Source: Arthonia radiata
Taxonomy: Eukaryota; Ascomycota; Arthoniomycetes; Arthoniales; Arthoniaceae
DNA length: 64,000 bases
NCBI GenBank assembly: GCA_002989075.1
Contig: PSQN01000004.1
Span: 434,001-498,000, forward strand
Reading direction: 5' to 3'
Below the pieces are notes generated by a model, which saw nothing but the letters and a program-made list of their open reading frames with translations, searched no databases and had not been told where the DNA came from. The translations under genes and the position numbers were made by a program. Positions 10,774-52,268 of this stretch are shown here, in pieces (position 1 is the stretch's first letter; each line of letters begins with the position of its first letter).

Positions 10774-12029
10774 GCAAGGCAGAGCGTATCGATGCGTTTT
10801 GAAAGCGATTCCTTCTCGAGCGTCTGGTGCGCAAAGGCTTTTGGTCAATCTTGAAGGGCGAAGCTGAACCGTCGGGTACGCTGCAATGTTGGCATGCGGG
10901 TCTGTTAGGAGATGAGCGTACTGGGATGGCTAAGCATGCGTTATAGCACGCTTGCGACGCGTGGAGGAGTGGGGGTTCCACAGAAGAATCATGCGCTGAA
11001 GACTCTCGCACAGCGTCACGTTCCTGCAGCTACTCCATCAGCAAACATAAGGCCGTCACTCAGTTGAGAAAGACCGCGCTATGTGATCGAGTCAGATGAC
11101 TGAGAAAAACTTTTGAAGATACTCAACTACCGCTGCGCCTTGCACTGGCGTTAGCGAGGCATTATCAGTATATCTCCACCGTTTCTCTCGCTCCCGTTCA
11201 GATCTACTCTTTCTAATGTTGTGAATTACCTCAAAGGCTTCAGCACACGCTCCATAAGAATTCTGCGTGTCTTCAACAGCCGTATTGTCGGGATGACCCT
11301 AGAATGAAGGAGAGAGAAAGAAGAAGGAAGGAACAATAAAGTTGGAGTTTTTTTGAGAAGACCCGTGAGTACGGAGGCCCACAAGCGTTACTGTGCCTTG
11401 CTTTACACATCTACACTCTCGAAGCATCATAACCTGAAATGACGTCCCACTAGCACGTACGCCACACTATTTTGAAATGATAGGCTGTCAAGAAGGCGTG
11501 AATCTCGACAATGTGGCTCTGGACGGATTTGAGCACAGTCAAAGCGGCGAGCTTGTGTCCTCGACCGCTTTTGCGTCTGCAAGTCTATCGCTCTTCCTCA
11601 GCTGATACACTTCTTAAAAGCAGAGGTAGGTTCATCTACTATATTTTTAGAAGGCTGTACACCGACAGCGCCTTAGCGACAATTTGGAATTCAAGATTGC
11701 TGAGTCTGATGCCTCCGAAAACGTACAGCAAATCTATGACTCACACCCCACTGCCGAGTCTCTTCGCTGAGCATCTGTCTTAAGCTCTGTAGAGCGGGCG
11801 TAAAGACGAAGTCTATAAAATTGCCATAAGTCACATAGAAAGTCGGACGTTGAACCCGTGACCGTCTAGAAGGAGAGATTGCACGCCTGAGAATTCAGGC
11901 TCCTACATTTTGCATACTGTGCCACTGTGCTTCACGATTGCTCATAAGTTAAGATTCTGGGCTTGTCGGGCCAGCCCACTCGCAAGCCAGCAATACTCTT
12001 ACATCAAAATCGCGTTGCCAGTCTCCATC
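10774..12029. other. Intergenic region before FRS2
   Basis: No gene recognised. The last part is presumably the FRS2 promoter and 5' UTR; the FRS2 frame stays open upstream to 11910 but those 40 codons are unlike the conserved N-terminus. Confidence 0.45.
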
Positions 12030-13708
12030 ATGCCGGGACAGCGAGGACCAGTGCCGGTCCCACTCCACGATGGCGACAGGGACGTCACGCAGCTGCTGCT
12101 CGACACACTCGATGCGAAAAATACCACACCCATCCTCACATCCGCGGAATTTCCCACGATATCACGCGCAGAGATTAAAGCAGCGCTCGACAGGCTGGCG
12201 TCGCGGTCCATGGTCCAGTACAAAACCAAAGACACCGAGATCGTCTTATTGACACAAGAAGGGAAAGAGATCTGCGACGAGGGCAGTCATGAGTGGAAGG
12301 TCTGGCATGCCGTCAAGGAGAAGGGAAGTGTAGAGATCAAAGATCTTATGAAGACGGTGGGCGCATCTGCAGGGGTTGGTCAGGGCACAGCGATGAAGAA
12401 CAAGTGGGTCAAGAAAGAGGGCAGCGCATTGGTCCCAGCAGCAGGCGAGGTGGAGGACACCACACGATTAGACCTACAACATGTTCGAGATACACAGACC
12501 CTTGCACTTCCCAAATCGCTAGCGGACTACAAGAAGAGAAAGCTCGTGATACCATCGAAAGCAACGGACTACGCTGTGGAGAAGGGCCCGAAATACTCGC
12601 GCGAGATGCCGGTGGAGGTGACAGATCTGACAGCCGAGATGTTGGCTGATGGCAGCTGGGAGACGGCGAACTTCAAGCCGTACAACTTCAACGCACTGGG
12701 CGGTCAGCAGAGTCCGGGCGCTCTACACCCTTTATTGCAGATGCGATCAGAGCTTCGCGACATCTTTTTAAGAGATGGCTTCGTGGAGATGCCCACCACG
12801 CGCTTCGCTGAATCGGGTTTCTGGAACTTCGACGCACTGTTCGTGCCTCAACAGCATCCTGCTCGCGACTTGCAAGATACATTCTACCTCTCCGATCCGG
12901 CCAGTGCAGACCCACCGCGACCTGACCCAGAAACAGAAGCCATGATGGACAGGATGGAGGCGCGCACAGACACACGCTTTGGCACGACTGGCTCAAAAGA
13001 GCCGCGGAAGATGAGCTACGAAGATTACTGGGATCGAGTAAAGCGAGTACATGAGGGGACGAAGGACGGTAAGGAGGCGCCGTTTGGCTCAATCGGATAT
13101 AGATATCCCTGGAGTGCCGACGAATGCTTGAAGCTCTGTCTAAGAACACACACCACAGCAACGAGCAGCTGGGTGCTGCACCGACTGGCGAGCAGACCCC
13201 GGCCGGCGAAATACTTCTCAATAGACCGGGTCTTCAGGAATGAAACCGTGGACGCAACACATTTGGCGGAATTTTTTCAAGTCGAGGGCGTCATTGCGGA
13301 CTGGAACCTGTCGTTACCGGACGGGATGGGGTTCCTGGAAGACTTCTTCGGCCAACTTGGACTTGGCGAGATCAAGTTCAAGCCAGCCTACAACCCTTGT
13401 GAGTATTCCTTCAGTAACCATGCATAGTTCACGAGCTAATCACAGCAGACACCGAACCTTCTATGGAGGTCTTCGGGTACCACAAAGGTCTGCGCCGCTG
13501 GGTGGAGATCGGCAATTCGGGCATCTTCAGACCGGAGATGCTGCAGCCAATGGGCCTGCCAAAGGATCTCCAGATCTTTGGATTCGGCCTCTCAGTCGAG
13601 CGGCCGACAATGATCAAATACGGATTAAAGAATATCCGGGATCTAGTCGGCCACAAAGTCTCCTTAGAATTCATTGAACAGAACGGGGCTGTTCGGCTGG
13701 ACAAGTAG
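12030..13708 (+). CDS. FRS2: Cytosolic phenylalanine-tRNA ligase alpha subunit
   Basis: Exons 12030-13398 and 13449-13708 (intron 50 bp, GTGAGT...CAGCAG, branch GCTAAT) give 542 residues, normal for eukaryotic cytosolic PheRS alpha. With the beta subunit (not in this window) it forms an alpha2beta2 enzyme that charges tRNA-Phe. N-terminal winged-helix-like DNA/tRNA-binding repeats cover about residues 1-150. The class II catalytic core follows: [15 protein letters not shown] near 230, motif 2 [20 protein letters not shown] near 392-411 and [10 protein letters not shown], and motif 3 [16 protein letters not shown] after the intron. I chose the ATG at 12030 because [15 protein letters not shown] starts the conserved part; the extra upstream codons look like untranslated leader. 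The stop lies just before the tandem repeat block at 13.74 kb, so those repeats may be part of its 3' UTR. Confidence 0.95.
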
Positions 13709-21081: not shown

Positions 21082-23151
21082 TCATCTCTCCCGTCCCGGA
21101 AACATCTCCCCAAACGACAGAGACACTCTCGGCTTGCGCAACTCCATACTACTGTCGCTCTCTCCATCGGATGAGGACTCATCGCTCGAGGACTCCGCAG
21201 CTTTCGGCGTCGTCTTTGGCTGTGTTACAGGCGCCTTGGGCTTACTGGCTGGCGTGCCGTTGCTCAGATTTTTGGTAAGTTTGGATGCTTTGATGGCGTG
21301 CAGAGAGTCTGCGCTGTCATCGTCGGAGCTGTCAGATTCAGATGTGCTGGGCTTTCTCGTAGTGGTGGCTTTGAGGGTTGAAGATGGGGGCACGCCGTTA
21401 GTAGGTCTGCGCTTTGAGGACCTGGGTTCGCGGATGGTGCGCGGACGTTTTCCATCAACGTCTGAGATACCGTCAAAATCGGATGGGTGTGGACTTTTAG
21501 AAGAGCCGGCGGTCTTTCGCGAAGCTTTGCTGATGCCATTAGGTCTTTGGGCTTTAGAACGTAAGGCTTGCTTTTTTGCGTCGCTATCGTCGCTAGATGA
21601 TTCATCGGAGCTTGACGAGCTAGAAGATGATGAAGGACTTGATTTGCGTTTCGAAGGTTTCTTCGCTCCACTTGGCTTGGGGACTTGGGAGCGAGCGTCT
21701 TGCCTTTTGGAGATGCTACCATCATCATCGTCAGATGAAACTTCAGAACTGGACGATTCAGAAGACGATGAAGCACTTGATTTGTGTTTCGATGGCTTTT
21801 TCGCCCCATTGGGCTTGGAGCCATTGGAGCGAGCGGCTGGCGTTTTCGAGATGCTTTCGGCATGAGACGATTCGTCGGAGCTTGATGATTCAGAAGATGA
21901 CGAAGGACTTGATTTGCGTTTCGAAATCTTCTTCGCACCGTTGACCTGCTTGCCGTTCGGCTTCTTTGACTGTTGTCCAAGCTTAGATCTTTTACCGTCA
22001 TTGTCTGTGCCCTCGGGAGAACTTGAGGTATCCGAAGCGCTGAAGTACTGCTCGACGTCTGCATCCGTCTTCTGATGGCTTTGTGAATCTGCTCGTGGCT
22101 TGTCATGCTTCGGCGGGGGCTTGAACCGCTTTGGTGATGTGGCTTTGGGCGCGGGCTTCGGCTCGAAGCCAGCAGGGAAGTGTCGCGCTTGAAGGCCTTC
22201 GGGCTGCTGGACGACCGGTTTTGTGACGGGCTGGTGCGGTACGTCCATGTCCGCGCTATTTAAAAGGTCTTCTTGCAAGCTCATAGTCTTGTCGAACTTC
22301 CTCTTTGCAGCTCTGTATTTGCCATCACTCGTGGGCTCCAGAACGCGCGCTTCAGCGTTGGTACCGAACTGCGTCCTGAAGAAGTATGTTGACCCATTGT
22401 GAGATATCCTATCGCCTTTCTGGAGCTGTCGTAGGCTTAGCTCTTTGATGTGCGTGAGCGGCACGGATGCTGGACAGGTGATTTGGAACAGCTGCTTGCC
22501 AGCAAGGTCTGATATGGGATGTGATGCAATATCAGATTTGAGGTGTTCGAAGCCTGCCGGAGGTTCAAAAGAAGACGACGCAGGCGTCGTTGCATCCGAA
22601 GGTTCATGAATGCTCTTCGCTTTTGGTGGTTTGGTAGTACCTGTGAACTTAGGTTAGCTGTGGCATCGGTAGCAGGCTCACTGCGCCCCCGTGGCATTAA
22701 TGCCGCAGCGCGGACAACGTGAAGGTGACCACAACGTACCACTGGGATTTGCTCGCTCTACGCGTTTTGATCTTTCGCTCTCAGCACTTGTAACAGAAGC
22801 TGCGTCGACATTCTGTGCGTCGTCTTTCTCTGGTCCGCTCTCGTTATCCGATTGCGCGTGTGCCGGCTCGCTCTCTTCATCTTTGCTGGTGGTGGCCGAG
22901 CTTGCTGCAGGTGGTGTGGGAGGCTTTGGCGCAAATTTCGCGCTTTTCGGAGGCTTTGGGGTGGATTTCGCACGTTTTGAAGGCGTCTCTGGAGGCGGTG
23001 TAGCTTTCCGTTTCGCAGGCTTGCTTGGTGAAGATTTTGAAGCAGAGGGTTTTGACTGCGACTTTGGCTGTGAAGAGTGCTTTTCTGTTGGCGCATCACC
23101 CTCGACATCGCTTTCCACGATCGTTTCTGCGCTTTTGTACTTTTTGCCCAT
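21082..23151 (-). CDS. RPA34: RNA polymerase I subunit RPA34 (A34.5) with a long Ser/Lys repeat tail
   Basis: Exons 23151-22740 and 22640-21082 (intron 99 bp, GTACGT...TTCACAG, branch GCTAACC) give 656 residues. The conserved part lies across and after the junction: FEPPAGFEHL, HPISDLAGKQLFQITCPASV and PLTHIKELSLRQLQKGD with the strand SHNGSTYFFRTQ, matching the A34.5 dimerisation domain that pairs with A49 on Pol I in the nucleolus. The N-terminal 150 residues are Lys/Pro/Ser-rich. After residue 270 comes a long low-complexity tail with three or more diverged repeats of the type KKPSKRKSSPSSSSESSSSD, reminiscent of Nopp140/Srp40 acidic-serine tracts. Yeast A34.5 has about 233 residues, so most of the extra length is this tail. 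The ATG is 12 bp from the GRC3 start on the other strand. Confidence 0.85.
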
Positions 23152-23163
23152 TGCGCAAATTCA
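23152..23163. promoter_or_regulatory. 12-bp gap between RPA34 and GRC3 start codons; shared bidirectional promoter inferred
   Basis: The ATG of RPA34 ends at 23151 (minus) and that of GRC3 starts at 23164 (plus). With no room for a promoter between them, transcription of each gene must begin inside the other's 5' coding region or the annotated starts must be shifted. Both products serve rRNA synthesis or processing. Confidence 0.6.
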
Positions 23164-25955
23164 ATGCCGCCTCCCAAAAAGAAGCGCAAAGTCAGTGGCG
23201 ATGATCAGAGATCCAATGCGGGATTGCAGGGAGAAGCGCGTAAGTTCAGTGCTTGTCGCATTTCGAAATTGTGTGGCAGGAAAAGATGCGGGTGCAGGTC
23301 GCGTTTTCCGCGTCACCACGTGCATCGCATTCTGCATTGGAAATTCCACTTCGAGATCTATACACAGTCAAAAGCTCGCAGAAGTGTAAAGATCATTTCA
23401 GAAAGCTAATCTTGAGTTAGCAATAAAAGCGCCTGTCAGCGCATTTGCTGCTGCGCAAGCCCGGCAGCAGCGAGAAGATGTTGAGAGTGACAGCTCAGTC
23501 AACGATGACCAAACCGAGTATCACGACCCACTGTATCAAGATGAGCCTCAAACCTCGGATTATGATGCAGTTGGCACAGACGAAGAGTATCAGAACCCAT
23601 TGAAGCCGCCGCGCGCCACGGTGAGACGGCATGGCCACAGCAGCACATACCAGCCAGTATGTCTGTCTACGTGGCAGCCAGCTGAAGAGACCATCGTGGG
23701 TCGGGACTCGAGTTCGACTACTATTCGAATGAGGCCGGGAGAGACGTTGCTCCTCATAGGTGTCTGTGACCTCGAGGTTCGGGACGGTGCCGTCTCCGTG
23801 TATGGTAAGTCCAAGGCCCTTACACGTCTCCATGATTTTTAAGCGCATGATAGAGCACAATGGAGAGTTTTGGCACAGATAATGGCCTACTCGTTTGAAG
23901 GATTTCATTTCGAAGAGGTTCAGGGCCGGCCACTGACGTTCCATTTCCAGGTTCTACTCTGAATGCAGAATCACACATATACCGAGTCTATAGCCCGTCG
24001 ACACACGCGATACCAGTCATCACAAGCGTTTCCGCGACCGCACGCCACACAAGCACACTTCGCCTCACCCCGTGCAAGAATTATCTCCACCGCTTGCGGC
24101 GCGCATCTCCTCTGTTCGGTCGCATTAGCAACGACCAATATGAGCCTTCCGAGCTGACGTCGCACATTGAATTACCAAGCTTCTCATACGTAAGTCGAGA
24201 CCTCTAGAAAGCGCCCCTCGGATACTAAACCCTTGCAGATCCAGCACTCAGCTTCTGACCCTCTCAAGCGTCCTCTGCAGCCCTTGGCGAACCCAATATC
24301 CTGGACACAGGCTTTCGAGCGTTTTGCCAGAACTGAGCGCGCCGGCGTACCTAGAGTCCTAGTCTGCGGCCCAAAAAACTCCGGCAAGTCGACATTTGCT
24401 CGAGTTTTGCTTAACAACCTCCTTTCAAAGCGTTCATCAGCGCAGATCGACGGCGTAGAGCCTTCCATTCCAGCGCCAACAGTATGCTACCTTGACTTGG
24501 ATCCAGGGCAGCCTGAATTCACACCGTCGAGCCAGGTTTCAGTGGTTCAAGTCAGAGGGCCAGTCTTCGGTCCCCCGTACACTCATGCTCAGTCAAGTGC
24601 ATCAGTCCGTATCCTCCGAGCTCACAGCATCGCTTCCACCAGCCCAAAAGAGGATATACCACACTACCTAGCGTGTGCCAGAGATCTGATGCAACACTAC
24701 GCTGACATCCTCCTCACGTTCCCATTGTGTCCCTTGATCATAAACACGCCTGGTTGGATACACGGCGAAGGGCTGGATATGCTCACTCAGCTAATCAAGA
24801 TATGTGATTCATCTGCTGTGATATGTCTTGGTCTCGACAGCATCCTCGACAATGCAATCTCCTCAGAGACCAGCACAACCCTCCAAGCAGCAGCTAAAGG
24901 CAGCCTGTTTCAGACGTTGGAAAGCGAGGCCAGTCCGGTTGTGGGTCGGACGGGCGCTGATTTACGGGTGAGTGATGCAACACCTTTCTCCTGGGAAGGC
25001 GCTCAACAGCCAACACGCTGGCGTTGGTTCTGAATCCCGAGCCTGAACCCCGGTGCTTGCGTACGTTCTTGCTGCACGAGTAAAAGCCGCTGACTTTACC
25101 TCACAGGCGATGCAACACCTCTCCTACTTCCACTCCAAACCATACGACAACCACGACAACAACGCAAGATGGACAAGTAAACCCATTCAGCTCCAGTCCA
25201 CCCTCTCACTGCGCTACAGCAGTCCTAACCCAGACATCCTCGCGTTCGCCCATTTGAACGACGGTGGCCCAGTCGACGATCTATGGCCTACAGTCCTTGA
25301 CGCATCGCTCATTGCGGTCGTCTACATCGAAGACGACGATCTCCTCAACTCTATAGCCCACCAAACCGCCATTACGCAATCGCATCATCTTCCCGTTCTT
25401 CGCAACCGCCGGAAACAGCGACTGCTACCGCTTGATCCCAAGAAGAGCCGTCTTATCTGTCTCGCGTACGTCAAGAATGTCGATATAGAGAATAAAGAGA
25501 TCGAGGTCGTGACGCCGCATGCTGCTGAGATCTACTCCCTCAAAGACTCCCACGCATCATCCGTCCCGTCACCAGTAGCAGGAGTAGATTCACCAAGCGC
25601 TGCAGAAGACACTGACGACCGTGAAAGCAATATCGACCACGCCAGACTGGTGGTTCTACAAGGCCACTTCGACCACCCTACCTGGGCCGGCCTCTCCGCT
25701 ATCCACTATCAGCGACATATTCAGCGGGAGCGGAGACAACGCGCTTTGACGCGATCCGCGGGTGCGAGGGCGGAGGAGGAGTTGCATGGGTGGTTGAAGC
25801 AGCAGCAGAGCTTGCAGGTCGATGGCGTTGAAGAGGATGGTGGGACAGCCAATCCCCGGCGGAGAGGGCATGGAGGCGAACATGATGCGTGGGAGGAGGT
25901 CAGGAAGGTGGGGGTGCGGTATCTCGAGCCTGTGGGGAAGGGAAAGGGGAGGTGA
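23164..25955 (+). CDS. GRC3: Polynucleotide 5'-hydroxyl kinase Grc3
   Basis: Grc3 phosphorylates the 5' end made by Las1 cleavage of ITS2 during 25S/28S rRNA maturation. Exons: 23164-23239, 23406-23804, 23951-24189, 24239-24967, 25107-25955, about 763 residues. The last three introns are clear (GTAAGT/GTGAGT donors, CAG acceptors, branch CTGAC before 25107). The first junction is less sure: the acceptor could be 23405 or, with another donor at 23191, 23401. The N-terminus MPPPKKKRKV contains a classic nuclear import signal. SAFAAAQARQQ and a central beta-rich domain precede the P-loop GPKNSGKST (about residues 281-289), VCYLDLDPGQPEF, PLIINTPGWIHGEGLDML and, after the last intron, AMQHLSYFHSK. 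The C-terminal half carries ARLVVLQGHFDHPTWAGLSA. This order is diagnostic for the Grc3/Nol9 branch of the Clp1 superfamily. Confidence 0.92.
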
Positions 25956-27906: not shown

Positions 27907-28284
27907 CTGATGTACTAGGAGCTTTTGTCAGCTCCAGGACTTTCGAAGCAAAATGTGAAGCGATAAATGAGGCATTGGCAATCAGTCAAGGAGTCTAGAT
28001 ATTGTCACCGCATCGAGCATTGATGCTCATTGGCTAATACATGCTATGGTTGTAGAACTCATCATGCGCACATTAATCGAAATGGGAGCTGTAGGACTTA
28101 CCGAAATCCTCTGATGAAGATTGTATCTAGGACATGGGCAGGATTATTGAGAAGCAACCGCAGGGTCGGAGAATTTTGGAAGAGGGTGGTGGTCCGTGCT
28201 TCGATGACGCGCTGGCCGCTGTCACGCAAACGACGCGACTTGCGGCTTTCGATGTGTTGCTCTTTGTGCCTCGTTCGCTATTTC
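27907..28284. promoter_or_regulatory. Divergent region between MOCS2A-type gene and RNB exonuclease gene
   Basis: 378 bp between two start codons on opposite strands. The RNB frame stays open upstream to 28030 but those codons are unlike a conserved N-terminus, so this is taken as a shared 5' region. Confidence 0.4.
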
Positions 28285-31200
28285 ATGATCAAGCATCGCA
28301 CCATTCAGTATGCGCGTCAGCGGTCGCATAGGTGCTCAGGCCCTCTGCGGGTCCGATCTCAACTCCTGCATAATCCTGGATCCAGGGTAAACCTACGCCT
28401 CGACAGCTCAGCATACATTTTCAGTGGCGACCCTGCGTCTCGTGTGGTCTCAAACTTACGGCAATCGTATCAATGTCGTGGCTTCCGTTGCGCCGTTGTG
28501 ACTATCGACAATGAGGCCTCTACTTCAACTGGTTTGCCATCAAATGGCCCCCCTCCGATCTCAGGCCTAGACGGTCCGAGCATCCGTGACCGACTTCGCG
28601 GTTGGAAACCAGAAGAACTATCAAGAAGTGAAAAGGAGAAGGCGGCATGGGAGAAACAGCAGGTTGCTCTGCATCATGCTGAAAACGACTATCTACGTTC
28701 AGACCTGCAGATGCAAGAGGAGGATGGCGCAGACGAAGATCCGGCAACGGACATCTTCACTAAGGAGTACGATCGTATGTCCGGCGAATTTGAAGGCACA
28801 GACACTTCAGCCGCTGCTTTCCGGCCGGGAGACATCGTTGAATTGCCCGGTGGCCACGGTGGAAAACCTCTTCTAGCAGTCTTCCTCAAGAATACGCAGA
28901 ATTACACGATTCTGTATAATACAGAAGGGCGTTTGATCGCGTCGTCATATGGCCACGTACATTTCAGATGCTGCCGCCAATTCACAGAGCAGGAGCTGGC
29001 TCCCATCTTTGCGTACATGCCGGACGATCCCTTCACGAACGTCGAAACGCTCTTGGACGAGTACAGCGAGCTCATTCCAAGGAGCGCAGGCGTGCACGTG
29101 TTGAGGAAGCTTGCTGACTTCTCAGAAGCGGTTGACGATGCATTTCGAAAGCATTCGAAAGCTTTGGCAAACGTCCACGCCCTTGTAGCACATCCAACAC
29201 AAGCCAAGTCCATGTTGCTGGCCGACATCGCCGCTCAAGTGGTTGCCGCACCGGCGTCTGAGCCACACCAATTATCGGAGCCTCTGCTACTTGCCGTGAG
29301 TCATTCATGTATCCGTGGCTCGTATGGTTTCAAGGTTGCCAATCGTAGCTACGTCGGCACTCGATCCATGTTCGTTGAGTCAAAGTACTCTGTAGACGTA
29401 GTCGAACGTGTGACGCAATGGATAAGGGCATATCAAGAAGAAGCATCGAGTCAAACACGCAAGGTTCAGCCCAGCACGCGAGTTCGCAACGACGCTAAGC
29501 CGGTCCACGGTTTTGCTTTGCGAGCCCGTCGATTGGTAGAAGCGAGCAAACAGATGCGCTTGTATACACCGCACGGCGCGGTCGTTGGTACCAAGGCAGA
29601 GTATCTCGACAATCCACAACTTGCTGAGTCTATGATCGCGACAGGCTTCACGAGCGCTGATCGAGACATCATCCACTTCCTAACTTTGTTCCTCGCCGGC
29701 AGAGCATTTTTCTACCATCCGCATCTCGTTGGCCTGCCAGCCATCGTCATTCGTGCCGTCAAAGGGAATGATGACTTTGCCGCTATGCAGACCGAAGTTG
29801 ACTCTGACGCCGTCCACTCTCTTCTTGTCGAGATCGGAGTCATGCAGCCGTTCAATAACCCGGAGGCGGTCGATCGCGAGTTAGTTATTCATGATGAAGA
29901 TCTCCAGAAAGGCTTGGATGTGCGGCAAGAGCACGTTGATGCTGGCATGCCACTGGAGGAGGCAGTTGGACTTCAGGATTCGATGGCAGACATGCGGCGC
30001 GATTGGGCTGAGCTGCCGGTCTATTGCATCGACTCGCATTCAACGACAGAAGTCGATGATGGTATCTCAATCGAAGAGATCCCAGGATCACCAGGTCACG
30101 TTTGGGTCCATACCCATGTGGCACATTGTTCATCGCATTTCACGCCTGAGCATCTCCTTGCAAGGGTCGCAGAAAATCGATACGGCACACAGTATCTGCC
30201 AGAAGGACGGATGTCAATGTTGCCAACTTATATCTCCGAAAGGTTTAGTGTGCAGCCTGATGTTCCTGTCATTACAATCTCGGCACGCTTTGACGCTGAC
30301 GGCATGCTCATCGATTCGAAGATAGAGCCCGGTATTGTACGCAACGTACACACTATCAACATCGATCAAGTAGACAACTTCTTCGGCTATCAGGGCGACA
30401 AGTCAATGCCGGTTGTTATGAATGTGGGAAAAGAGGCGTCTTCACATTCACAAACCTTCGACTCAGAGGTGGGAGCACCGCCGCATACCTACGACATCAG
30501 TTCCGAGCATCACGAACCCCTGCATCGACTGCTCTCCCTCGCCCAAAAGATCCGATCTCGCCAACCGGGCCAACACATGCGCGGCTCTGGCAACCGCAGC
30601 GATATTCGTCTCTCAAATCAACCTCGCGATCCCACCATACCAGCCCATCACTTCCAAGCCGCCGCTCATCGAATGATGCCCACTCCTTTGGCGCCTTCAT
30701 ACGCGCTCCGTTTCCCTGACCTCTCCATGTCCGTTAATCCGAACTTCGACGCTGCTCTTTTGCGTCCCAGTGGGGATGAGCCTCCCTCCAACACCCTTGT
30801 TTCCGAATTCATGGTGCTCGCTAATGCCATCGTCGGCAAATACGCCGCTGAGCGCGATTTGCCGATCGTTTTCTACGGGTCCGCGCCTGCAGCTGAGGGC
30901 ATCGAAGAGCAACTACCTATCATGCGTGCACGCCTTCAGCGGATGGCAAGGGGCGAAGAGCCGATCGAGCGTGGATTCGTGACATACACCAGGACTGCAT
31001 TTGCGCTGCGGAGACTGAGCGAGCGCCCCGTGAAGCACGTGCCAATGGATATCGAAGCCTACGCGAAAGTCACAAGTCCGTTGAGGCGGTTTTATGATCT
31101 CGCGAGTTTGTGGACCATTGATGCGGCCGTAAAGTATGAGCATGAAACGGGCCACAGTCTGAAGGTCAAAGATATTGGGATGGGCTGGTTTGGCAGACAT

Positions 31201-31587
31201 TGGGAGGGCGCGTCTGGTGTTGTGGACAGTGATGCTCACCGCATGGACGAGGGGAAAGAAAAGCTGCCATTCACCCCGCCTTTGGATCACGCAGCTGTCG
31301 CCAACATCCTCGAACGCACACGCTATCTCGACGTCGGGCAGATGCGGTACCTTCACTCTCACGAGAAACACCACATCTTCCAAGCCTTCGGGCGTGCGCT
31401 CTACCTCTGTCCGCAGAACATTGTGCCATATTACCCTGAGGGTAGGCATCCCGGCCCAGAACTGGTGAACCCTGCCGAAGGCAGATTCGTGGCTATCGTG
31501 GGTAAGTCCGGGTCCATTCGCCGGAGTCTAAGGTTGGAGGGTTTGGAAGTCGGTAAGTCTCAAGCACCCACACTTTCTCTTTCGTAG
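28285..31587 (+). CDS. cyt-4: Mitochondrial RNase II-family (RNB) exoribonuclease, Dss1/Cyt-4 type
   Basis: One long exon, about 1100 residues. The first 75 residues (from MIKHRTIQYARQRSHRC) are rich in Arg/Ser/Leu with few acids, as in a mitochondrial presequence. Conserved parts: TSTGLPSNGPP..., SIRDRLRGW, FRPGDIVELPGG, then the RNB domain with VYCIDSHSTTEVDDGISIEE at about residues 579-598, in which the catalytic Asp set (D..., E-V-D-D) is intact, WVHTHVAHCSS, YLPEGRMSMLPTYISERF, AYAKVTSPLRRFYDL. The Dss1/Cyt-4 group is the 3'-5' exonuclease of the mitochondrial degradosome or group I intron processing. The frame stops at 31585-31587. A 35-bp GT-AG segment (31553-31587) would, if spliced, extend the protein to TGA 31677-31679; I keep the unspliced end because 35 bp is very short for an intron. 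Start codon is the least certain point. Confidence 0.85.
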   Translation: MIKHRTIQYARQRSHRCSGPLRVRSQLLHNPGSRVNLRLDSSAYIFSGDPASRVVSNLRQSYQCRGFRCAVVTIDNEASTSTGLPSNGPPPISGLDGPSIRDRLRGWKPEELSRSEKEKAAWEKQQVALHHAENDYLRSDLQMQEEDGADEDPATDIFTKEYDRMSGEFEGTDTSAAAFRPGDIVELPGGHGGKPLLAVFLKNTQNYTILYNTEGRLIASSYGHVHFRCCRQFTEQELAPIFAYMPDDPFTNVETLLDEYSELIPRSAGVHVLRKLADFSEAVDDAFRKHSKALANVHALVAHPTQAKSMLLADIAAQVVAAPASEPHQLSEPLLLAVSHSCIRGSYGFKVANRSYVGTRSMFVESKYSVDVVERVTQWIRAYQEEASSQTRKVQPSTRVRNDAKPVHGFALRARRLVEASKQMRLYTPHGAVVGTKAEYLDNPQLAESMIATGFTSADRDIIHFLTLFLAGRAFFYHPHLVGLPAIVIRAVKGNDDFAAMQTEVDSDAVHSLLVEIGVMQPFNNPEAVDRELVIHDEDLQKGLDVRQEHVDAGMPLEEAVGLQDSMADMRRDWAELPVYCIDSHSTTEVDDGISIEEIPGSPGHVWVHTHVAHCSSHFTPEHLLARVAENRYGTQYLPEGRMSMLPTYISERFSVQPDVPVITISARFDADGMLIDSKIEPGIVRNVHTINIDQVDNFFGYQGDKSMPVVMNVGKEASSHSQTFDSEVGAPPHTYDISSEHHEPLHRLLSLAQKIRSRQPGQHMRGSGNRSDIRLSNQPRDPTIPAHHFQAAAHRMMPTPLAPSYALRFPDLSMSVNPNFDAALLRPSGDEPPSNTLVSEFMVLANAIVGKYAAERDLPIVFYGSAPAAEGIEEQLPIMRARLQRMARGEEPIERGFVTYTRTAFALRRLSERPVKHVPMDIEAYAKVTSPLRRFYDLASLWTIDAAVKYEHETGHSLKVKDIGMGWFGRHWEGASGVVDSDAHRMDEGKEKLPFTPPLDHAAVANILERTRYLDVGQMRYLHSHEKHHIFQAFGRALYLCPQNIVPYYPEGRHPGPELVNPAEGRFVAIVGKSGSIRRSLRLEGLEVGKSQAPTLSLS

Positions 31588-42788: not shown

Positions 42789-44322
42789 TTTGATGGAATC
42801 CTGGATGGAGTCGAAAGACTGGCCGCGCTTTCCTGCAATACTCAAAGGTTAAGGCAGTACTCAAGTCGCTGCTTATGCAATCTACGTGACACATATGCAG
42901 GCTGCCGAAGCTCTGTAGTACATTGGTACAATAATGGTCATATTGGCACCTTTTACGTGGTTGAACCGCTCGTAATTTCACAATCACAAGGACATGAAGT
43001 CGGTAAGATAATACAGACCTGCAGCCCTACCGAAAGCCGCGCCTGTCTTCATAGCCAGACGGTCGCGGCAGGCTAACGAGCTCTGATGCTCTGATGCTCG
43101 CAGCATTCTGAACAGCTGAAACTCGTCGCCAACCGCAGGCCTGGTCAGTGCACGGAATTACTCGAACGCAGCGAGCAGACGGTCAGATACACTCTTCTCA
43201 GGGATTGCTCGGCGCTCAACATTGGGTGAGATGGCCATAATTCCTGCTATTCCAATTAGGCTGCCAAGGCAAGTAATGATTCGGATGATGCGCACCCCGA
43301 CTCCGGATGTGCTTGTACTGAGTCCGCTGAGTGAAGCCAGAGACTATGATCGTGAGCTGGTGGTCCCACAAAAGAGCACACGGAGCAGGCTAGAACCTGG
43401 AGATGCATTGTGACTCTGCCAGGCTGCTAGTCGGTGGCCTTTCATCGTCTCAGCCGTCATGCAGATCAAGTGTGTCCCCATGGGCGCTTGTTGCGTGAGG
43501 TTCTAAACAGTCTCAGCATCAGATGCCCTGCGTTGCAACTGATGCAACTGAATGACCGCAGCACCACTTTAGGCATTCAATGTAGCCAGCTAGATTCTTG
43601 CGGAAGTGATCATTGTGCAGCGCCAGTGATGGACATGCTTGGGGGCGTTCTCATATCCAAGTCAGCAACGCGCGATCGCCAGGCGCTGTTGGAGTCCACA
43701 GAGCAGCGTAAGTAAGTGATCGGAAGTGACGCAGAAGACGGGAAATATAGCTTCGCGGTACCTCTGCAGAGACATATGGGCGTGGAGGTACAGATCGGCA
43801 AAGCTGTTACGTGAGCAGCAAGAGAGGAGTGTGCGAGGAGTCACGTGGGAGTGATACAAAAGGACTAAAGAGGGGAAGGTTTCAAAAAAAAGGAGCCTCG
43901 ATGATATAATGTGGCACCCTCTTTCACGCCAGATTGCCATGTTGCTAGATCAGGGTATGTCTGATGACCCTTGCACACCTAGTCGATGAGACCGCTCATT
44001 CTTCCTGCGCAACTCATTGTTCGGCTCGTGCAATGTTTTCCTCGCTGCTCAGTTCTCGGTGCTGTGCGGAAAGGAGTCCTCTCCATTCGCTTGTCACTTG
44101 TTGACTATCTTGTCTGTCATACTTGGTACTCCTGTACTCCTCCTCCACCGCGACTCTTACCTTACACCAACCGCGCCCGCAGGTGCTGCGCTGGCATTAG
44201 GAAGAGCAGCACACCGCCTCCTCACGCCGCAAAGATGGCCTCACCAACTCGACTGATCTCGCTTCGGGCTCGATAGCTTGAATGTGTTGCATCCAGTTCA
44301 CTATCCCATCTTTTCAAGCATC
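42789..44322. other. Intergenic region upstream of RIM15
   Basis: About 1.5 kb without a recognisable gene. The last 300 bases before 44323 are pyrimidine-rich, as in many fungal promoters of well-expressed genes. Confidence 0.5.
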
Positions 44323-47300
44323 ATGGCCGAGGATGTCCCCGCTTCATCTACTTCGCAACCCACCATACTCGCCAGCGACAATGGCCTCTCCCGCGTTGCT
44401 CGGCTGCGAGCTCAGATGGAACGAACGACGAGCGAAAACATTCGTGAAGAAGGACGAGAGCTGAAACACGCCGTCGAACAATCCTTGAATGTCATACTCG
44501 ATCTCACTCTTGACGGTCACATCCGCTGGCTCAGTCCCACCTGGACTGATGTCGTCGGTACACATGTCGACGAGGCTCAGGGCAAGCCAATCGCCGACTT
44601 GCTCGTTGATAACAAACGAGTGTTTGAAGAAGCGCTCACTGCGTTGAGGAACAACGATGGCAACAGCAAGGTCATCCGCTTTTCTCTCCACATGGGCCCC
44701 AAATCGCGGCTCAAGAAATGCTGTGGCACCGAGGAGGACTCACAGTCGACCAAAGAAGAGACTATCGAGGAGTCAGACCATGCATCCGCCGTAGAAGGAG
44801 AAATCATATATCTTGAAGCTCAAGGCATACTGTCGTACGATCGGACGACGGGCGAAGAGAGCCACGTAAGTGAAGCAATGTGGTTCTTGCATCCTAGCTG
44901 ACGACGCACAGACAATGTGGATGATCCGACCTGCGGTCCTGCGAGAAGTGACCATTGACCTTCCCGAGATCCTCATAGAATCATTGGGAGTCGGTGCCGA
45001 GATGCTTGCACAACACCTAACAATCTTGGCTGACACGGGCTCAAAAGATCCAGAAGAGAATCCGCCGCCTTTGCCAGTCCTCTGCCGCATTTGTGAACGC
45101 TACATCACCCCTTGGTGGTTTCCGAAGCACACCGAGCTGTGTTTGCAGGAGCATCGAGCTGAGGCAGAACTGGAACTGGCGCAAGACAATCTTACGGAAC
45201 AACGAAACCAGATCGTCAAGGTGCTCGATGCCCTCGAGGAGCGGGCAAAGCACAGGCGCATCTCGGGCGTTGATCCTGCCCCGCCGGCCCCGCCACCTGC
45301 TATGTACAAGACTTTGGAAGTCGGCATGTCGTCCAACAATTCCGGCTCGTCCTCCAGCACGGTCTCGAGATCTTCCTCTCATTCTCACACTGGCTCTCGC
45401 GAGAGGTCGGGTACCGTCCGACATCATCATCGGGCTCGCTCATTCACCGTTCGAAGGCCTGTCTCTCGCATTGTGGAGTTGGTACTGGACCTCTGCGATA
45501 CCGCACTAGAGATCAGCACCCCAGCTTTGAAGGACACCAGGGTCAACGACGGCGGTGAGATACGTTCACAATCACCCCAATCAGAGGCCCGAATATCACA
45601 GGTGAACAATTGGTCATCGCCAAGCATGGGTGCGCTCGACAATGAGCCTGGTTTAAGCCTCCTATGCGACGATACTGGCAACCTAGCAAAAGCGAAAGTC
45701 GACGCGAATGCCCGCTTCAGACAAATACTTGAATATTCTGAGCGCATACGAAACGAGTTTACGAGCCTTGTTGATGAATGCATGCACGCTGCGCTAGACA
45801 AAGCCAAACGAATTGCTGCTGGGGAAAGCAGTAGTGATTCATCTGACGATGACTCGACCTCCCGAGGTCAGCAGTCCGAGGATGAACAAGAGCATAAGCA
45901 CAGTGTCGACGAAGGTGAGAAGCCTGTTGCGTTTGGCTCGATCCCAGAAACCACTGGACGCAATTCTGCATTAGCTACGGCACTTCGTTCGACATCGAGC
46001 CGATCCGGTTCACAGAGTCCTCACAGACGCAATGAATCAGCTCTATCAGAGCGCTCAAGCAGCCCGAGGGAATGTCCAACGCCGCGATCACGAGCTGCTG
46101 CCCCAAGCATTTCATCACAAGACAAAAGGTCTTCCATCTACACAGATACCGATGCGGGTGCAGACAGTGATGGCAGTGTGCGCTCGTCTGTCCCTTCACA
46201 CCATCAGCGTGCCGATTCTCCCGCTTCCGACATCGCACTCTCCAGGGCACCTTCGACCCGTGAGCGTAAGCGAAAGAGTCTTGTTCTACCGCGTGCGATG
46301 TCACAAAACCGCGGACACTCTCCAGGACGAGCCTCGCTTGGCCAGCCATTATCACCGCTACGTGTATCAAAGCCACGCATCACCAGCAGCAATCAAGACT
46401 TAGCCATCAAGTCGCCTCTCACGTCTCCGACCTTGTCGAGCTCGGAATTCTGCTCGCCAATGTTGACTGCCCAACAGCCACCTCAGCCACATCCACAGCA
46501 TCATCATCGACACCGCCGGCAATCGTCAGCGGCGTCATCAGAGGTCTCACGACAAGGCGTGTCTCCCCACATGAGCATGACTAGCGGTCCACCCCAGCGT
46601 GCAGTAGCACCCTCCATCAAAGATTTCGAAATCATCAAGCCTATTAGCAAGGGCGCTTTTGGCAGTGTCTACTTATCGAAAAAGAAGTCGACGGGCGATT
46701 ACTTTGCCATCAAGGCGCTTAAGAAGGCTGACATGGTCTCAAAAAACCAAGTCGCCAACGTCAAAGCTGAGCGAGCCATTATGATGTGGCAAGGCGAAAG
46801 TGACTTTGTAGCCAAGCTATACTGGACTTTCCCGAGCAAGGACTACATCTTCCTAGTGATGGAATACCTCAACGGTGGTGACTGCGCGTCCCTCATACGC
46901 GCTTTAGGAACGTTGCCCGAAGATTGGGCTAAACAATACCTTGCCGAGGTCATCCTCGGTGTAGACCACCTGCACTCCAGGGAGATTGTGCATCGCGACT
47001 TGAAGCCAGACAATCTGCTCATTGATCAAAAAGGTCACCTTAAGCTTACTGACTTCGGTCTATCTCGTATGGGTCTCATTGGGCGTCAGAAGCGGGCGTT
47101 GAACGCTAAGCAGGACCAACTTCACGCAGACCCCTTGAAGCAAGGTCCGTTCGCACGAGCGCCCTCCATGGGATCTTCTCGTTCAGCATCTTTTGATGTC
47201 AACACAGCGCCATCTCCGTCGAACACACCTGTCCTCACTCCAGCGACTGGTGATGCCAGCGTCCCTTCATATTTCAGTCTAACCCGTGAGCCGTCCCTTT

Positions 47301-50180
47301 CCAGTAAAGACCCAACAAGGGCTAGCTCTACCCACCACAGAGAATCCACAGACTCAGAATACTTGCAGACGGCGCTGCGTCGAATGTCTATCTTCGATGA
47401 TCTCGCTAGGCAGTCGCCTCTTTCTGAGGAGGCCTCTCGAGATGAACGCGAGGTTGCCGATAGAACTGGTTTGCACAGAAGCGAGAGTACCGCAGCTGCA
47501 AAGCGGCAATCGATGCCGCCCTCGAGTGCAATGCTTCCGCCACCAATGGCGCTGTTCGACCCCGACGACAGCAACCGCCGATTTGTTGGGACTCCTGATT
47601 ATCTTGCCCCGGAAACTATCAATGGTCTTGGCCAGGACGAGATGAGTGATTGGTGGTCGATTGGCTGCATTCTATTTGAGTTTCTCTGTGGATATCCTCC
47701 TTTTCATGCTCCCACGCCCGAAAAGGTTTTCGAAAACATACTGTCCCGAAAAATTGATTGGCCATCTGATGACGTGTCTATATCGCCAGAAGCAAAAGAC
47801 CTCATGGAGCGGCTTATGACTGTGAAGCCGAGTGAAAGAATAGGCGCGAACATTGGAGACAAATACGAAAATGGCGGTGAAGAAATACGCAACCATCGCT
47901 GGTTCTTCGACATCAATTGGAACACAGTCAACGAGGCTGAGGCATCGTTCGTACCAAACCCGGAGCACATCGAGGATACTGAATATTTTGACTCTCGTGG
48001 AGCGACCAATGAGTCCTTCGCAGCCGAGTTTGACGACCAGAGCTCCTCTCCCGTTCCCACACCAGGAGCGGATTACCCTGATCGGCCACACGATGCTCTG
48101 TCGCGCGTACGAACTCCGGTCATCGGACCGAAGCGTGGACTGATGCCTCTTCACATACCCAAGCATGTTCGCGAGGGTCGAAGCAGACGACTGAGTGAAC
48201 CCGGAAACTCTGATGACTTTGGTCAATTCGCGTACAAGAATCTTCCGGTCCTTGAAAAGGCAAACAAAGATGTCATACAAAAGCTGCGCGCCGAGGCTAT
48301 GCAAGCTCAGAGCAAGCCTCAGCAGCCCCCAAAGTCTGCACCCAGCCAGCCGTCAACGTCTCCACCGGAGAATTGCAGCCCTATGTCAATGTCTTTAGGC
48401 AGGACGCTCTCGCAAAGCAGTCGACCGAAGTCACCTTCAGCTCTTGGAAGTCTTGCCACGTCGTCTCCAAACCGAGGTTCTCAGCCTCCTTCTCCGCTTG
48501 TGCAATTCAGTGCTGGCGTGCATCATGAGCGGCGCAAAACCTCGGGTGGATCTACGCAGTCTTCAGGCTCACTGCAGCCTCACGGCTTCTTCGACGTGTC
48601 TCGCCTGCCCACTCAATCTTCGGCCGGGTCGCCAGTGCGGACCGCGAAATCGCCTGGGCCAATGGAGTTTGACGGTCCTCTTAGTGGCCAGCTCCTGGCT
48701 ACAGCGACTTCACCGCGGACACGGTCAAGGACGGTTGGTGCTCGCGAGTCGGAAGCCATCCGCGACCCTGGAAGTCGTCATCAGAAACACAAGAGTCAAA
48801 TCCTCGACATTTCACCAAATTCATCCGATAACGACGAGACGAGACAGCAAGCTCTTCTACGTGTCCAGCGACGTAGACAAAGCTCAAGACGGCTTTCTCA
48901 AATCAACTTTATTGACGGCCCATATTTCAGGCCGCTTGACATTCTCGTCTGTGAGGATCACCCCGTGTCGCGCATCATTATGTCCAAACTCCTTGAGACA
49001 CTTCGTTGTCGTGCTCTTGTCGTGACAGACGGTGGCGAAGCCGCACGCTACGCCATGGGCAGTGTCAAGTTTGACGTCATTATGATGGAATTCAAATTAC
49101 CTCAGATTAATGGGTTCGACGTGGCTCGAATGCTGCGGGAGACAAAGAATGCGAACAGGGAGACTCCGATTGTCGCAGTCACTGGCTATCTGAAGGAACT
49201 GCAAGCACCCCACCATTTCAATGCTCTAATCGAGAAGCCACCGACACAGCCGAAGATCACAGAAATCCTGTCCAAGCTCTGCCAGTGGAAGCCCAGCACC
49301 CCAGGCTGGCAACCGCAGTCTTACTCTATGACATCAGCAGGCGTGCCGCCGTCGAGTCTACGCAATGAATCTCTCCATAGCGAGGCGAGTCCAACATCTA
49401 CCGCTTCAAGCTTGCAAACCGTGCCTTCGAGCTGGCGCAGCTCCAGCAGAGAGGATTCCTTCAGCTCAGGTAGCGTTTTTACGGAGCCAGACCAGAAGTC
49501 TCAAGAGGGCCCGATCACGATCGTCCGGCCTGCAGAAGACGAAGTGAAGCGCATGCCTCAAGGAGGTCTTGGCATCACGGGCGGTCTTTCCACTGACATG
49601 CGCAGAGGCCAGATGCATCCTATTGCGGCGCTCAAGCATGAAGATTCAGCGCCAGCAAGTCTGTCGCAAGACAAGCTCGTTCGAAAGCAGCCTTCTGCAG
49701 ATGCTATTGATGCGAAGCGTAAGGCCATAAATAGGTCGAATTTGAGCGGAGGGGGCGACTTAGGCGACGATGAGGATGAAGAGCTTGGAAAGCGTGCAAG
49801 ATCGAGAAGCCCTAGAGGAAAGACGAAGGCTATCGATACTCCAAGGTAAGCCATCAAGACACCTGTCGTCCGGAGCATCATTAATTTGTTTGATTAGGCC
49901 CGTTGGCGAAGTGCTTCGGGCAGACAGCCACGGCGACGCATCGTCCAACGGCCGCGACATTGACTCATCATTCGCCTACCTCGCGGTCTCACCCCCGCAA
50001 GACGAGCGCTTAGGCATACAAATTGACCATGCTCGCCATCAACATTCGGGCATCACGCCACCCACAATGTTTTCTCCTCGTCCAGGCCACGAAATCACCG
50101 ACATCGATATGGACGCTACGCCGATGCACGGCAGCGCAGGTTATTTCGACCCGGAAGGCCCCACGCCCAAAGCCTCTTGA
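44323..50180 (+). CDS. RIM15: Rim15-type AGC serine/threonine kinase with PAS region and receiver domain
   Basis: Exons 44323-44865, 44912-49845 and 49898-50180 (introns 46 and 52 bp) give 1919 residues. Rim15 links nutrient signals (TOR, PKA, Pho85) to quiescence, stress response and, in filamentous fungi, conidiation. Order: PAS-like segment near residues 55-110 (ILDLTLDGHIRWLSPTWTDV); C2HC-like zinc motif LCRICERYITPWWFPKHTEL at about 236-260; long Ser-rich linker; kinase from about 752 (ISKGAFGSVYLSKK, HRDLKPDNLL near 873, LTDFGLSRMG near 893, FVGTPDYLAPET near 1073). Between DFG and APE lies an insert of about 170 residues, as in other Rim15/Greatwall kinases. The receiver domain (about 1523-1640) has DILVCEDHPVSRIIMSKLLE and FDVIMMEFKLPQINGFDVAR; the usual phospho-accepting Asp is Glu here. 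ATG 44323 was chosen over 44278 because MAEDVPASS begins the conserved part. Confidence 0.93.
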
Positions 50181-50851
50181 CAGCACATGTCATCCGCCTT
50201 GCTGGATCTTCACTCGTTTGTTTACCTTTTTACGACAATACATACATGATTCTTTTGGGAGATATGTAAGATGTGAGGAATTCTGTACACATACTGGATT
50301 AGCGCGGCGCTTTGGAGATGATTTTATTGACGACTTTCATTTTTATCTTGGGATGGGGGAGGCAGTGATGGAAAACGCTGCGGAAAAAAGTCGGCCAACA
50401 TGACTGAAGCGGCAAAGCGAGCATGGAGAGAACGGTGCACATAGTCTCGAGTGTAAAGCAGCAGACAGATGAAGAGCGCACCACGCGCATGACTAGCTGT
50501 CACAACCCAAAAAGTCCAGTTGACGCTGGCAACGCGTGCTTCACTTCAGCATGCGCTATCTTCTGGCAACTCCGTGTCTTTGCTTTTGATTTTTCCTGTA
50601 GGTGTAACATACGCCACTAGATGGATGAACAGCGAATTGCACTGGTGATCTAGGTCTTAAGGAGCAAACAATTTGCGACGCGCCTCCGGAGCGTCATTGA
50701 ATTCAACCCATTGAAATTGGCGCCTTGGTCGCGTATTTGCTCCGCTGAATTGCTTTGCGTGGGGTATCAATCTATCGTTCGCCTCTCACATCTCCAATGC
50801 CAGCCGTCACCAGATCAAACCAAACGCCATGCTAATGCCACAGTAATACAC
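50181..50851. other. Convergent intergenic region between RIM15 and RPB4
   Basis: Shared 3' region of two converging genes; no further feature seen. Confidence 0.5.
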
Positions 50852-51423
50852 TTAGAAGGACTCGCGCTCCGACTCGCGTTGCAGATCGGTGAGTTGATTG
50901 AGCAGGTTGAGAATCTCCTCGTCAGATAGCTTTTGCGCAATCGAGGGGACCAGCGTCTTCGCTTCGTCGACGTCGACACAGCAGAGGGATCCTGAAAGAA
51001 ACGCACGTCAGCCCATCTCTCTCTTGAAGACCTCATCTCACGTCCCCCTCGTCCCCTCTTTCTCCACAACCCACAGCACCGTATATCCACCACCCTCTCC
51101 AGGAAGTCCAACATACCCAACTGGCTCTTCTCAAAACTCGTCAACCCCGGCGCATTCTTCAGCACATTCTCCAACTGCGTCACGATGCTGCTCTGCTTGA
51201 TCCGCGCAAACGCGTCCAGGTGGTCCATCGTGCGCACCAGCGTCTCGCTCTCCCGGAAGTTGGGGTTCACGTTCTTTTGCTTCTCGGTGAGGACGGAGAG
51301 GAGCAGGCGCGCTTCGGAGTTGGAGAGCGCGTAGTCCTGGGAGAATTCGCCGAGGTTGAGCGTCGCGCCGGCTTCTTCGTTGCCGAGCGGTTTTTGGCGC
51401 GGGCGGGAGGTGGCGGCGGACAT
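50852..51423 (-). CDS. RPB4: RNA polymerase II subunit Rpb4
   Basis: Exons 51423-51117 and 50991-50852 (125-bp intron GTATGT...TTTCAG, in frame) give 148 residues. Rpb4 forms the stalk of Pol II with Rpb7 and acts in initiation, mRNA export and decay. Visible signature: ATLNLGEFSQDYALSNSEAR, LLLSVLTEKQKN, RTMDHLDAFARIKQ, LKNAPGLTSFEKSQLGSLCC then DVDEAKTLVPSIAQKLSDEE and ILNLLNQLTDLQ at the end, the HRDC-like helices of the family. The short form, without the yeast-specific insert, is usual outside Saccharomycotina. The start at 51423 begins MSAATSRPRQKPLGN; the frame is open further upstream but that part reads as leader. It is divergent from the TRP-like channel gene at 52269. Confidence 0.92.
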
Positions 51424-52268
51424 GGCTGTGGATGGGTCGGGGTTGGGGAGAGATGTGTTTGTGGAGGACGAGTGTGCTGGATGCTGGTGGATGGGTTCGT
51501 CAAAGGCAGAGGAGGGTGTTGGGAGGTGATATCGTGGCACTGGAGACCTCGGAAAGCAGGGTCGGACTGGAAATAGCAATATTGCCAAGAAAGCTCCACG
51601 TTTCGTCTTCAACCCGAGCAATTCACCGCAAACTTTACCTTCCACACCTGGTCATCACCCTGGTCACTCTCATCATTGTCCTACTCGCCACTTCACCACA
51701 CCACTCCTGCCGTCGACATCCTTCACAGGGCGGCCATTGCTAGTTCCGGCCCTCTGCACGCCGCTGCCCAGGACTTAAGCTCAAGGTTAGGTGTACCGTC
51801 CGCACCCAATCCGTCCTGCCGGTCCTTCACAGCCACGATCCTACGGAAACTTTGCCCGTCTGGTCGTTGGAGTTCCTGGTGCATTATTCTTGACCAGGAT
51901 TCTGCGGCTTGCACTCAGGAGGTGTTCGCGCGCAACACATTGGACTGTGGGCATCCAAGAGTTGGTGATATCATTGCAGCAAACGAGCCATTGGTCGCCG
52001 CGACGTGTCTTTTCTGTCCTGCGACACCCCACGGCCCGTACTCATGAGGTCGTGAACCCCTATCAGCAGCTTCGCGCCTGCTCACAGCATGGTCACCACC
52101 CTTGACAATGACACAGACGGCCTCCGTGGCCTACAAGAAGGCGGGTGGGAGCTGTATGGGAAACCTCTTCCCACGGATGGGACACAGCTCGAGGACAACA
52201 CATCAAGAGCTGGCCACACCGCAAGCATACTCGGCCGGCCAATGTTGAGACTCAAGAGGCGGAGAACC
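51424..52268. promoter_or_regulatory. Divergent region between RPB4 and the TRP-like channel gene
   Basis: About 845 bp holding both promoters and leaders. The channel frame is open from 52089, but the 60 codons before 52269 lack the signal-peptide character expected at the start. Confidence 0.4.

Follow-up and report, generated by a model that had tools for sequence, protein, structure and literature searches.

Divergent RPA34 and GRC3 genes with start codons 12 bp apart in Arthonia radiata, and their probable overlapping promoters

The RPA34–GRC3 locus

A 64 kb stretch of the genome of Arthonia radiata (contig PSQN01000004.1, assembly GCA_002989075.1; G+C content 52.9%), referred to here as the window and numbered from its first base, carries two adjacent genes of ribosomal RNA (rRNA) production: RPA34, for the A34.5 subunit of RNA polymerase I (Pol I), and GRC3, for a polynucleotide 5'-hydroxyl kinase. 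RPA34 lies to the left on the - strand and GRC3 to the right on the + strand, in divergent (head-to-head) orientation. The ATG of RPA34 (read as CAT) occupies 23149-23151 on the - strand and that of GRC3 occupies 23164-23166 on the + strand; the gap between them, read directly from the sequence, consists of exactly 12 bases, TGCGCAAATTCA (23152-23163). With this 12-bp spacer the two genes form a divergent pair as defined in PMC2871058, namely adjacent genes placed head to head with less than 1 kb between them. The original prediction, that RPA34 and GRC3 face away from each other with 12 bp between their ATGs, was borne out by the coordinates and by Pfam and PDB matches.

The spliced model of RPA34 (21082-23151, - strand) encodes 656 aa in two exons, 23151-22740 and 22640-21082, separated by a 99-bp GT-AG intron (22739-22641) whose donor was picked by consensus among several in-frame options, with the start unaffected by the choice. 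Membership of the A34.5 family was indicated by a match to PF08208 (RNA_polI_A34) over residues 184-381 (E 7.5e-11, 42.9 bits vs a cut-off of 31.7), and weak matches were obtained to the RPA34 chains 3nfg_B and 3nff_B in PDB (E 0.23 and 0.29, respectively). Exon 2 also encodes imperfect repeats of the type KKPSKxKSSxSSSSESSSSDE and an acidic serine-rich stretch (about 21560-21960, - strand).

GRC3 (23164-25955, + strand) was modelled as five exons (23164-23239, 23421-23804, 23951-24189, 24239-24967 and 25107-25955) with introns of 181, 146, 49 and 139 bp, giving a protein of 758 aa; the acceptor of the second intron was picked among several in-frame options, again without effect on the start. 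The protein possesses a CLP1_P domain (E 4.3e-26), and its best PDB match was 8puw_B, a chain named GRC3 (E 4.2e-51), followed by 6of2_B, named as a CLP1_P domain protein (E 5e-51). A Clp1 chain matched far more weakly than the GRC3 chain (only E 2.5e-4), which groups the gene with Grc3 rather than with Clp1. The NOL9-type N-terminal domain Cupin_NOL9 was detected at E 4.5e-5 with 23.4 bits, under its cut-off of 27. A search for an RNA hosted in GRC3 intron 1 gave no Rfam match, either in the window at gathering scores or in 22900-23500 up to E 1. Homology (PF08208; Grc3/CLP1_P) assigns the two genes to rRNA synthesis or ribosome biogenesis, and the link between Grc3 and Pol I termination drawn in the original prediction is stated in PMC3176313, which, citing Braglia 2010, ascribes to Grc3 roles in both the termination of Pol I and the processing of pre-rRNA.

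Support for the annotated start codons

Both annotated starts look right from the sequence. In RPA34 the fourth codon upstream of the ATG is an in-frame stop (23161-23163) and the next in-frame Met is codon 257; in GRC3 the upstream in-frame stop is at 23071 and the next in-frame Met is codon 129, at 23729. Neither gene has an earlier in-frame ATG between the upstream stop and the start. On the + strand, the stretch 5' of GRC3 that covers RPA34 exon 1 is free of ATG in any frame for 463 bp (22701-23163).

Codon usage was scored with a measure trained on the other open reading frames (ORFs) of the window together with the last two GRC3 exons, and the six frames were compared. The expected frame was the best of the six in RPA34 exon 1 (+31.9 bits), in GRC3 exon 1 (+4.9 bits) and in the part of GRC3 exon 2 that precedes Met129 (+16.6 bits), and in GRC3 intron 1 all six scored below zero. 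The score of GRC3 exon 1 would not convince by itself, given the shortness of the exon: +4.9 was reached by three of 100 presumed non-coding windows of 75 nt, the maximum being +9.4.

The original prediction had allowed that one of the starts might be misplaced. On such a reading the main GRC3 product would begin at Met129, or RPA34 exon 1 would be wrong, and the true spacing would be hundreds of bases. Met129 is where the shorter solved Grc3 chain starts matching (query residue 129 to residue 25 of 6of2_B), the 128-aa N terminus of GRC3 alone gave no credible PDB match, and GRC3 exon 1, at 76 nt, has the modest score just described. About 160 residues of RPA34 lie ahead of its matched domain, a length that probably exceeds that of the yeast protein, and the matched chains are short and perhaps trimmed. 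However, both first exons and the GRC3 exon 2 sequence before Met129 scored best in the expected frame. The alignment to the longer Grc3 chain, 8puw_B, begins with GRC3 query residue 65 opposite residue 78 of the chain, whose N terminus is therefore similarly long. Moreover, no in-frame Met of RPA34 precedes codon 257, which itself falls within the A34 match. The upstream stops, the distant Met codons and the coding scores make a GRC3 start at Met129 unlikely, and a misplaced start at either gene very improbable.

The first ten codons of GRC3 (23164-23193, + strand) read MPPPKKKRKV, which contains PKKKRKV, the classic nuclear localization sequence of simian virus 40 (SV40); it is present in GRC3 probably by convergence, and it fits a start in exon 1. 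An open frame of 229 codons with an ATG also spans 22700-23389 (+ strand), antisense to RPA34 exon 1 and continuing across GRC3 exon 1 in a frame other than that of GRC3; it is probably a shadow of the RPA34 codon bias.

Predicted transcription start zones

In Aspergillus nidulans, 5' leaders from sharp transcription start sites have a median length of 93 nt, with 95% of them at 15-434 nt in statistics that left out leaders of more than 500 nt (PMC4046813). According to the same source, CA is the commonest start dinucleotide, the region from -50 to +25 is pyrimidine-rich, and the promoter motifs CACGTG and ACCGCC peak at about -70 from the start site. Should the present fungus be similar, no more than a few per cent of its leaders would be as short as 12 nt, and two leaders of 12 nt or less at once are very unlikely. 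By this analogy, the RPA34 and GRC3 transcripts very probably each start inside the other gene, which lends support to the earlier suggestion that each begins within the 5' coding region of its partner.

The likely start zone of GRC3 is a pyrimidine-rich stretch at 23080-23163 on the + strand (0.69 TC, that is, T plus C) that covers RPA34 codons 1-24 and the gap. The ten best-scoring pyrimidine-purine (YR) dinucleotides for GRC3 were located at 23119-23155, eight of them in RPA34 exon 1. The corresponding zone for RPA34, at 23176-23248 on the - strand (0.68 TC), overlies GRC3 exon 1 and the very beginning of intron 1. Of the ten YR dinucleotides that scored best for RPA34, nine were at 23185-23247 and the tenth was at 23379, where the leader would gain upstream ATGs. 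Such ATGs begin at -110, so that starts beyond about 23261 include them, and this favours an RPA34 start site within about 109 nt of the ATG.

Leaders longer than the gap would be perfectly complementary across both AUGs. Those of RPA34 and GRC3 would be complementary over tens to about 180 nt, with both start codons included. The same geometry would suit an antagonistic locus, in which transcription in one direction shuts out the other, or in which pairing of the leaders sets off RNA interference or stops translation, the two genes then balancing each other rather than rising together. The start context of GRC3 is weaker than that of RPA34, as judged by Kozak rules, which would also fit antagonism. 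At A. nidulans meaB, as possibly here, an opposite-strand promoter lies within a first intron, and the antisense transcription from it has a reported regulatory effect, although the transcript made there is antisense to meaB itself, whereas at the present locus it would be that of a second coding gene (PMC4046813). However, RNA interference gene disruption left meaB transcript levels unaffected (PMC4046813), and in Candida albicans the ribosome-biogenesis genes, taken together, show some of the tightest positive co-expression (PMC7911571). An antagonistic locus is decidedly improbable in our estimation.

Promoter-like sequence marks

The promoter-like marks around the gap agree with promoters embedded in the partner's exons; none is decisive, each is statistically weak and all were examined after the fact. 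Among nine starts compared, GRC3 had the highest TC fraction (0.667) over the 75 bp ahead of the ATG. Candidate upstream elements were found for both genes: CACGTG at 23317-23322, in GRC3 intron 1 and 166-171 bp upstream of the RPA34 ATG, and ACCGCC on the - strand (GGCGGT on +) at 22994-22999, within RPA34 exon 1, 165-170 bp ahead of the GRC3 ATG. The two are placed nearly symmetrically, about 165-171 bp upstream of their respective ATGs, and ACCGCC has an expectation of about 0.16 per 200 bp, so it is weak as a mark. The lack of + strand ATGs over the whole of RPA34 exon 1 compares with 3.2 expected by synonymous shuffles (P 0.03), the P value upstream of GRC3 being 0.057, 0.15 and 0.42 when only the first 100, 67 or 34 RPA34 codons, respectively, are considered.

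The TC-rich zones coincide largely with the initial codons of the partner gene, which are rich in purines (MGKKYKS... in RPA34 and MPPPKKKRKV... in GRC3). Among 1274 coding windows, the purine content of the first 25 codons was in the top 0.9% for RPA34 and the top 5.8% for GRC3.

Several results weigh against embedded promoters. The TC-richness is mostly set by the amino acids, with synonymous-shuffle P values of 0.048 for RPA34 (0.11 when taken over 30 codons) and 0.28 for GRC3, and three of the seven other ORF starts compared, themselves unverified, had a 75-bp TC fraction at least as high as that of RPA34 (0.587). A motif pair of the kind described, itself chosen after the fact, occurs at 1.2% of random window points, and any of three published motifs occurs on both sides at 4.7% of them; the window shows no enrichment of CACGTG (13 vs 19.4 expected). 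No TATA-like, PAC-like or RRPE-like hexamer was present on either strand of 22900-23450. Two of the ten best GRC3 start candidates (23153 and 23155) lie within the 12-bp gap rather than in the RPA34 exon, and functional clusters in C. albicans show no bias to divergent orientation (PMC7911571).

Other candidate signals were rejected. Selection for antisense pyrimidines was discarded, as synonymous shuffles showed the amino acids to explain most of the effect. For the PAC/RRPE signature of ribosome biogenesis, a single GATGAG was found at 23540, outside the shared zone, and no RRPE-like hexamer. The length of GRC3 intron 1 (181 bp) was dropped as a promoter mark because two other introns of the gene have 139 and 146 bp. 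An 8-bp palindrome at the gap, TTGCGCAA (23151-23158), occurs three times in the window vs 1.8 times expected, and 26 of 100 shuffles reached three; a literature search for it gave no paper that, by title, dealt with promoter regulation in fungi.

Comparison with known gene pairs

Conserved divergent gene pairs in fungi tend toward short spacers and related functions (PMC2871058). Table 1 of that study, which covers only the most conserved pairs (51 rows by our count, one of them uncharacterized on both sides), includes RRP3-SSF1, UTP17-RPABC5 and RPABC2-TFIIIA. RPA34 and GRC3 resemble these pairs in that divergently transcribed rRNA or polymerase genes are joined, whereas fungal conservation in that study was best at spacings of 100-1000 nt and here only 12 bp separate the ATGs. 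The spacing looks unusually tight for what is a known kind of fungal head-to-head pair.

In yeasts, the adjacent pairing of rRNA and ribosome biosynthesis (RRB) genes is established (PMC3500266, PMC6001612); ribosome-biogenesis genes are often neighbours, and adjacent pairs are more tightly co-regulated (PMC3500266). The present locus is similar in that two rRNA/ribosome-biogenesis genes are immediately adjacent, whereas RRB pairs occur in all orientations and the main texts of these two papers name neither RPA34 nor GRC3. Literature searches found no report of an RPA34-GRC3 pair, and the passages retrieved that name either gene were not about gene order. In Saccharomyces cerevisiae the two genes are on different chromosomes. 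The histone-gene promoters of Aspergillus are ordinary intergenic regions and differ in this from the RPA34-GRC3 promoter zone, which would sit mostly in coding exons. They are comparable in that one bidirectional zone serves two related genes in filamentous fungi (PMC6900853).

Scans of viral and prokaryote contigs, which are not fungal collections, with GRC3 or with a two-sequence GRC3 alignment found no fungal relative. One of them gave six loci (from 198 matched stretches), all from Hadesarchaea at 25-26% identity and uninformative on fungal synteny, and the others gave no relative.

Tight packing without shared function would leave RPA34 and GRC3 as chance neighbours, or as genes brought together by a local deletion, each having its own promoter inside the partner's exon and being expressed independently. 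Neither gene is named in any of the 51 rows of Table 1 of PMC2871058, nor in its main text, the identities of such pairs vary between fungal lineages (the paired ribosome-biogenesis members of C. albicans, for example, differ from those of S. cerevisiae; PMC7911571), and no promoter feature was statistically strong, all of which would fit chance packing. Set against this are the role of both genes in rRNA production, given the tendency of conserved divergent fungal pairs to be functionally related (PMC2871058), and the fact that even separate promoters would still overlap physically at a spacing of 12 bp. We consider chance packing unlikely, while granting it some weight, and view RPA34-GRC3 as a real, and apparently very tight, example of the documented divergent pairing of functionally related fungal genes.

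Other genes in the window

A second polymerase subunit gene is present in the same 64 kb: a match to the RNA polymerase II subunit Rpb4 was found at 50815-51651 on the - strand (Pfam E 1.8e-8; PDB 3h0g_D, E 2.2e-5), and this gene diverges from a TRP-type channel gene (52089-55895, + strand). A phenylalanyl-tRNA synthetase alpha-type gene (11862-13427, + strand) and a cyt-4-like RNB-domain gene (28114-31587, + strand) mean that several genes of RNA metabolism or translation lie near the RPA34-GRC3 pair. A large gene region at 44257-49849 (+ strand), with a weak PAS match and protein kinase and response-regulator domains, resembles Rim15. A member of the DUF6594 family is also encoded in the window.

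Interpretation of the probable shared promoter zone

A regulatory zone shared by RPA34 and GRC3 is likely. We favour, with moderate confidence, a divergent pair of rRNA-production genes whose promoters overlap and are embedded in each other's genes, and which are probably co-expressed. Fungal promoter statistics suggest that RNA polymerase II (Pol II) would start GRC3 transcripts within RPA34 exon 1, at about 23065-23150, and RPA34 transcripts in GRC3 exon 1 or early intron 1, at about 23185-23255. A single open stretch of roughly 200-350 bp (about 22990-23320), mostly coding DNA, would then be common to the two core promoters. Each polymerase would have to traverse the promoter of the partner, and the outcome could be co-expression from a jointly open locus, or interference. 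A common on/off state appears the most likely result, with positive co-expression across growth conditions and some competition at the level of single molecules.

Co-expression is the least supported step of this explanation. The original prediction held that a shared promoter would co-set rRNA synthesis and processing, an idea that is plausible but unproven; the sequence does not tell co-setting of RPA34 and GRC3 from competition between them, and deeply overlapped promoters can equally interfere. A further suggestion is that of a built-in balance, in which mutual exon-embedded starts and complementary leaders would fix the ratio of Pol I capacity to the processing of internal transcribed spacer 2 (ITS2), through directional competition or RNA pairing. 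If this were true, the codons for each N terminus would double as the core promoter of the partner; we regard a balance of this kind as improbable.

RPA34 and GRC3 belong to a pathway in which the supply and the processing of rRNA must match. If their promoters are embedded as the preferred reading has it, each protein would carry a double constraint on its first ~25 codons, and mutating or tagging either start would change the promoter of the partner gene. The locus would then offer a compact, naturally occurring test case for whether co-activation or interference results when divergent Pol II promoters overlap.

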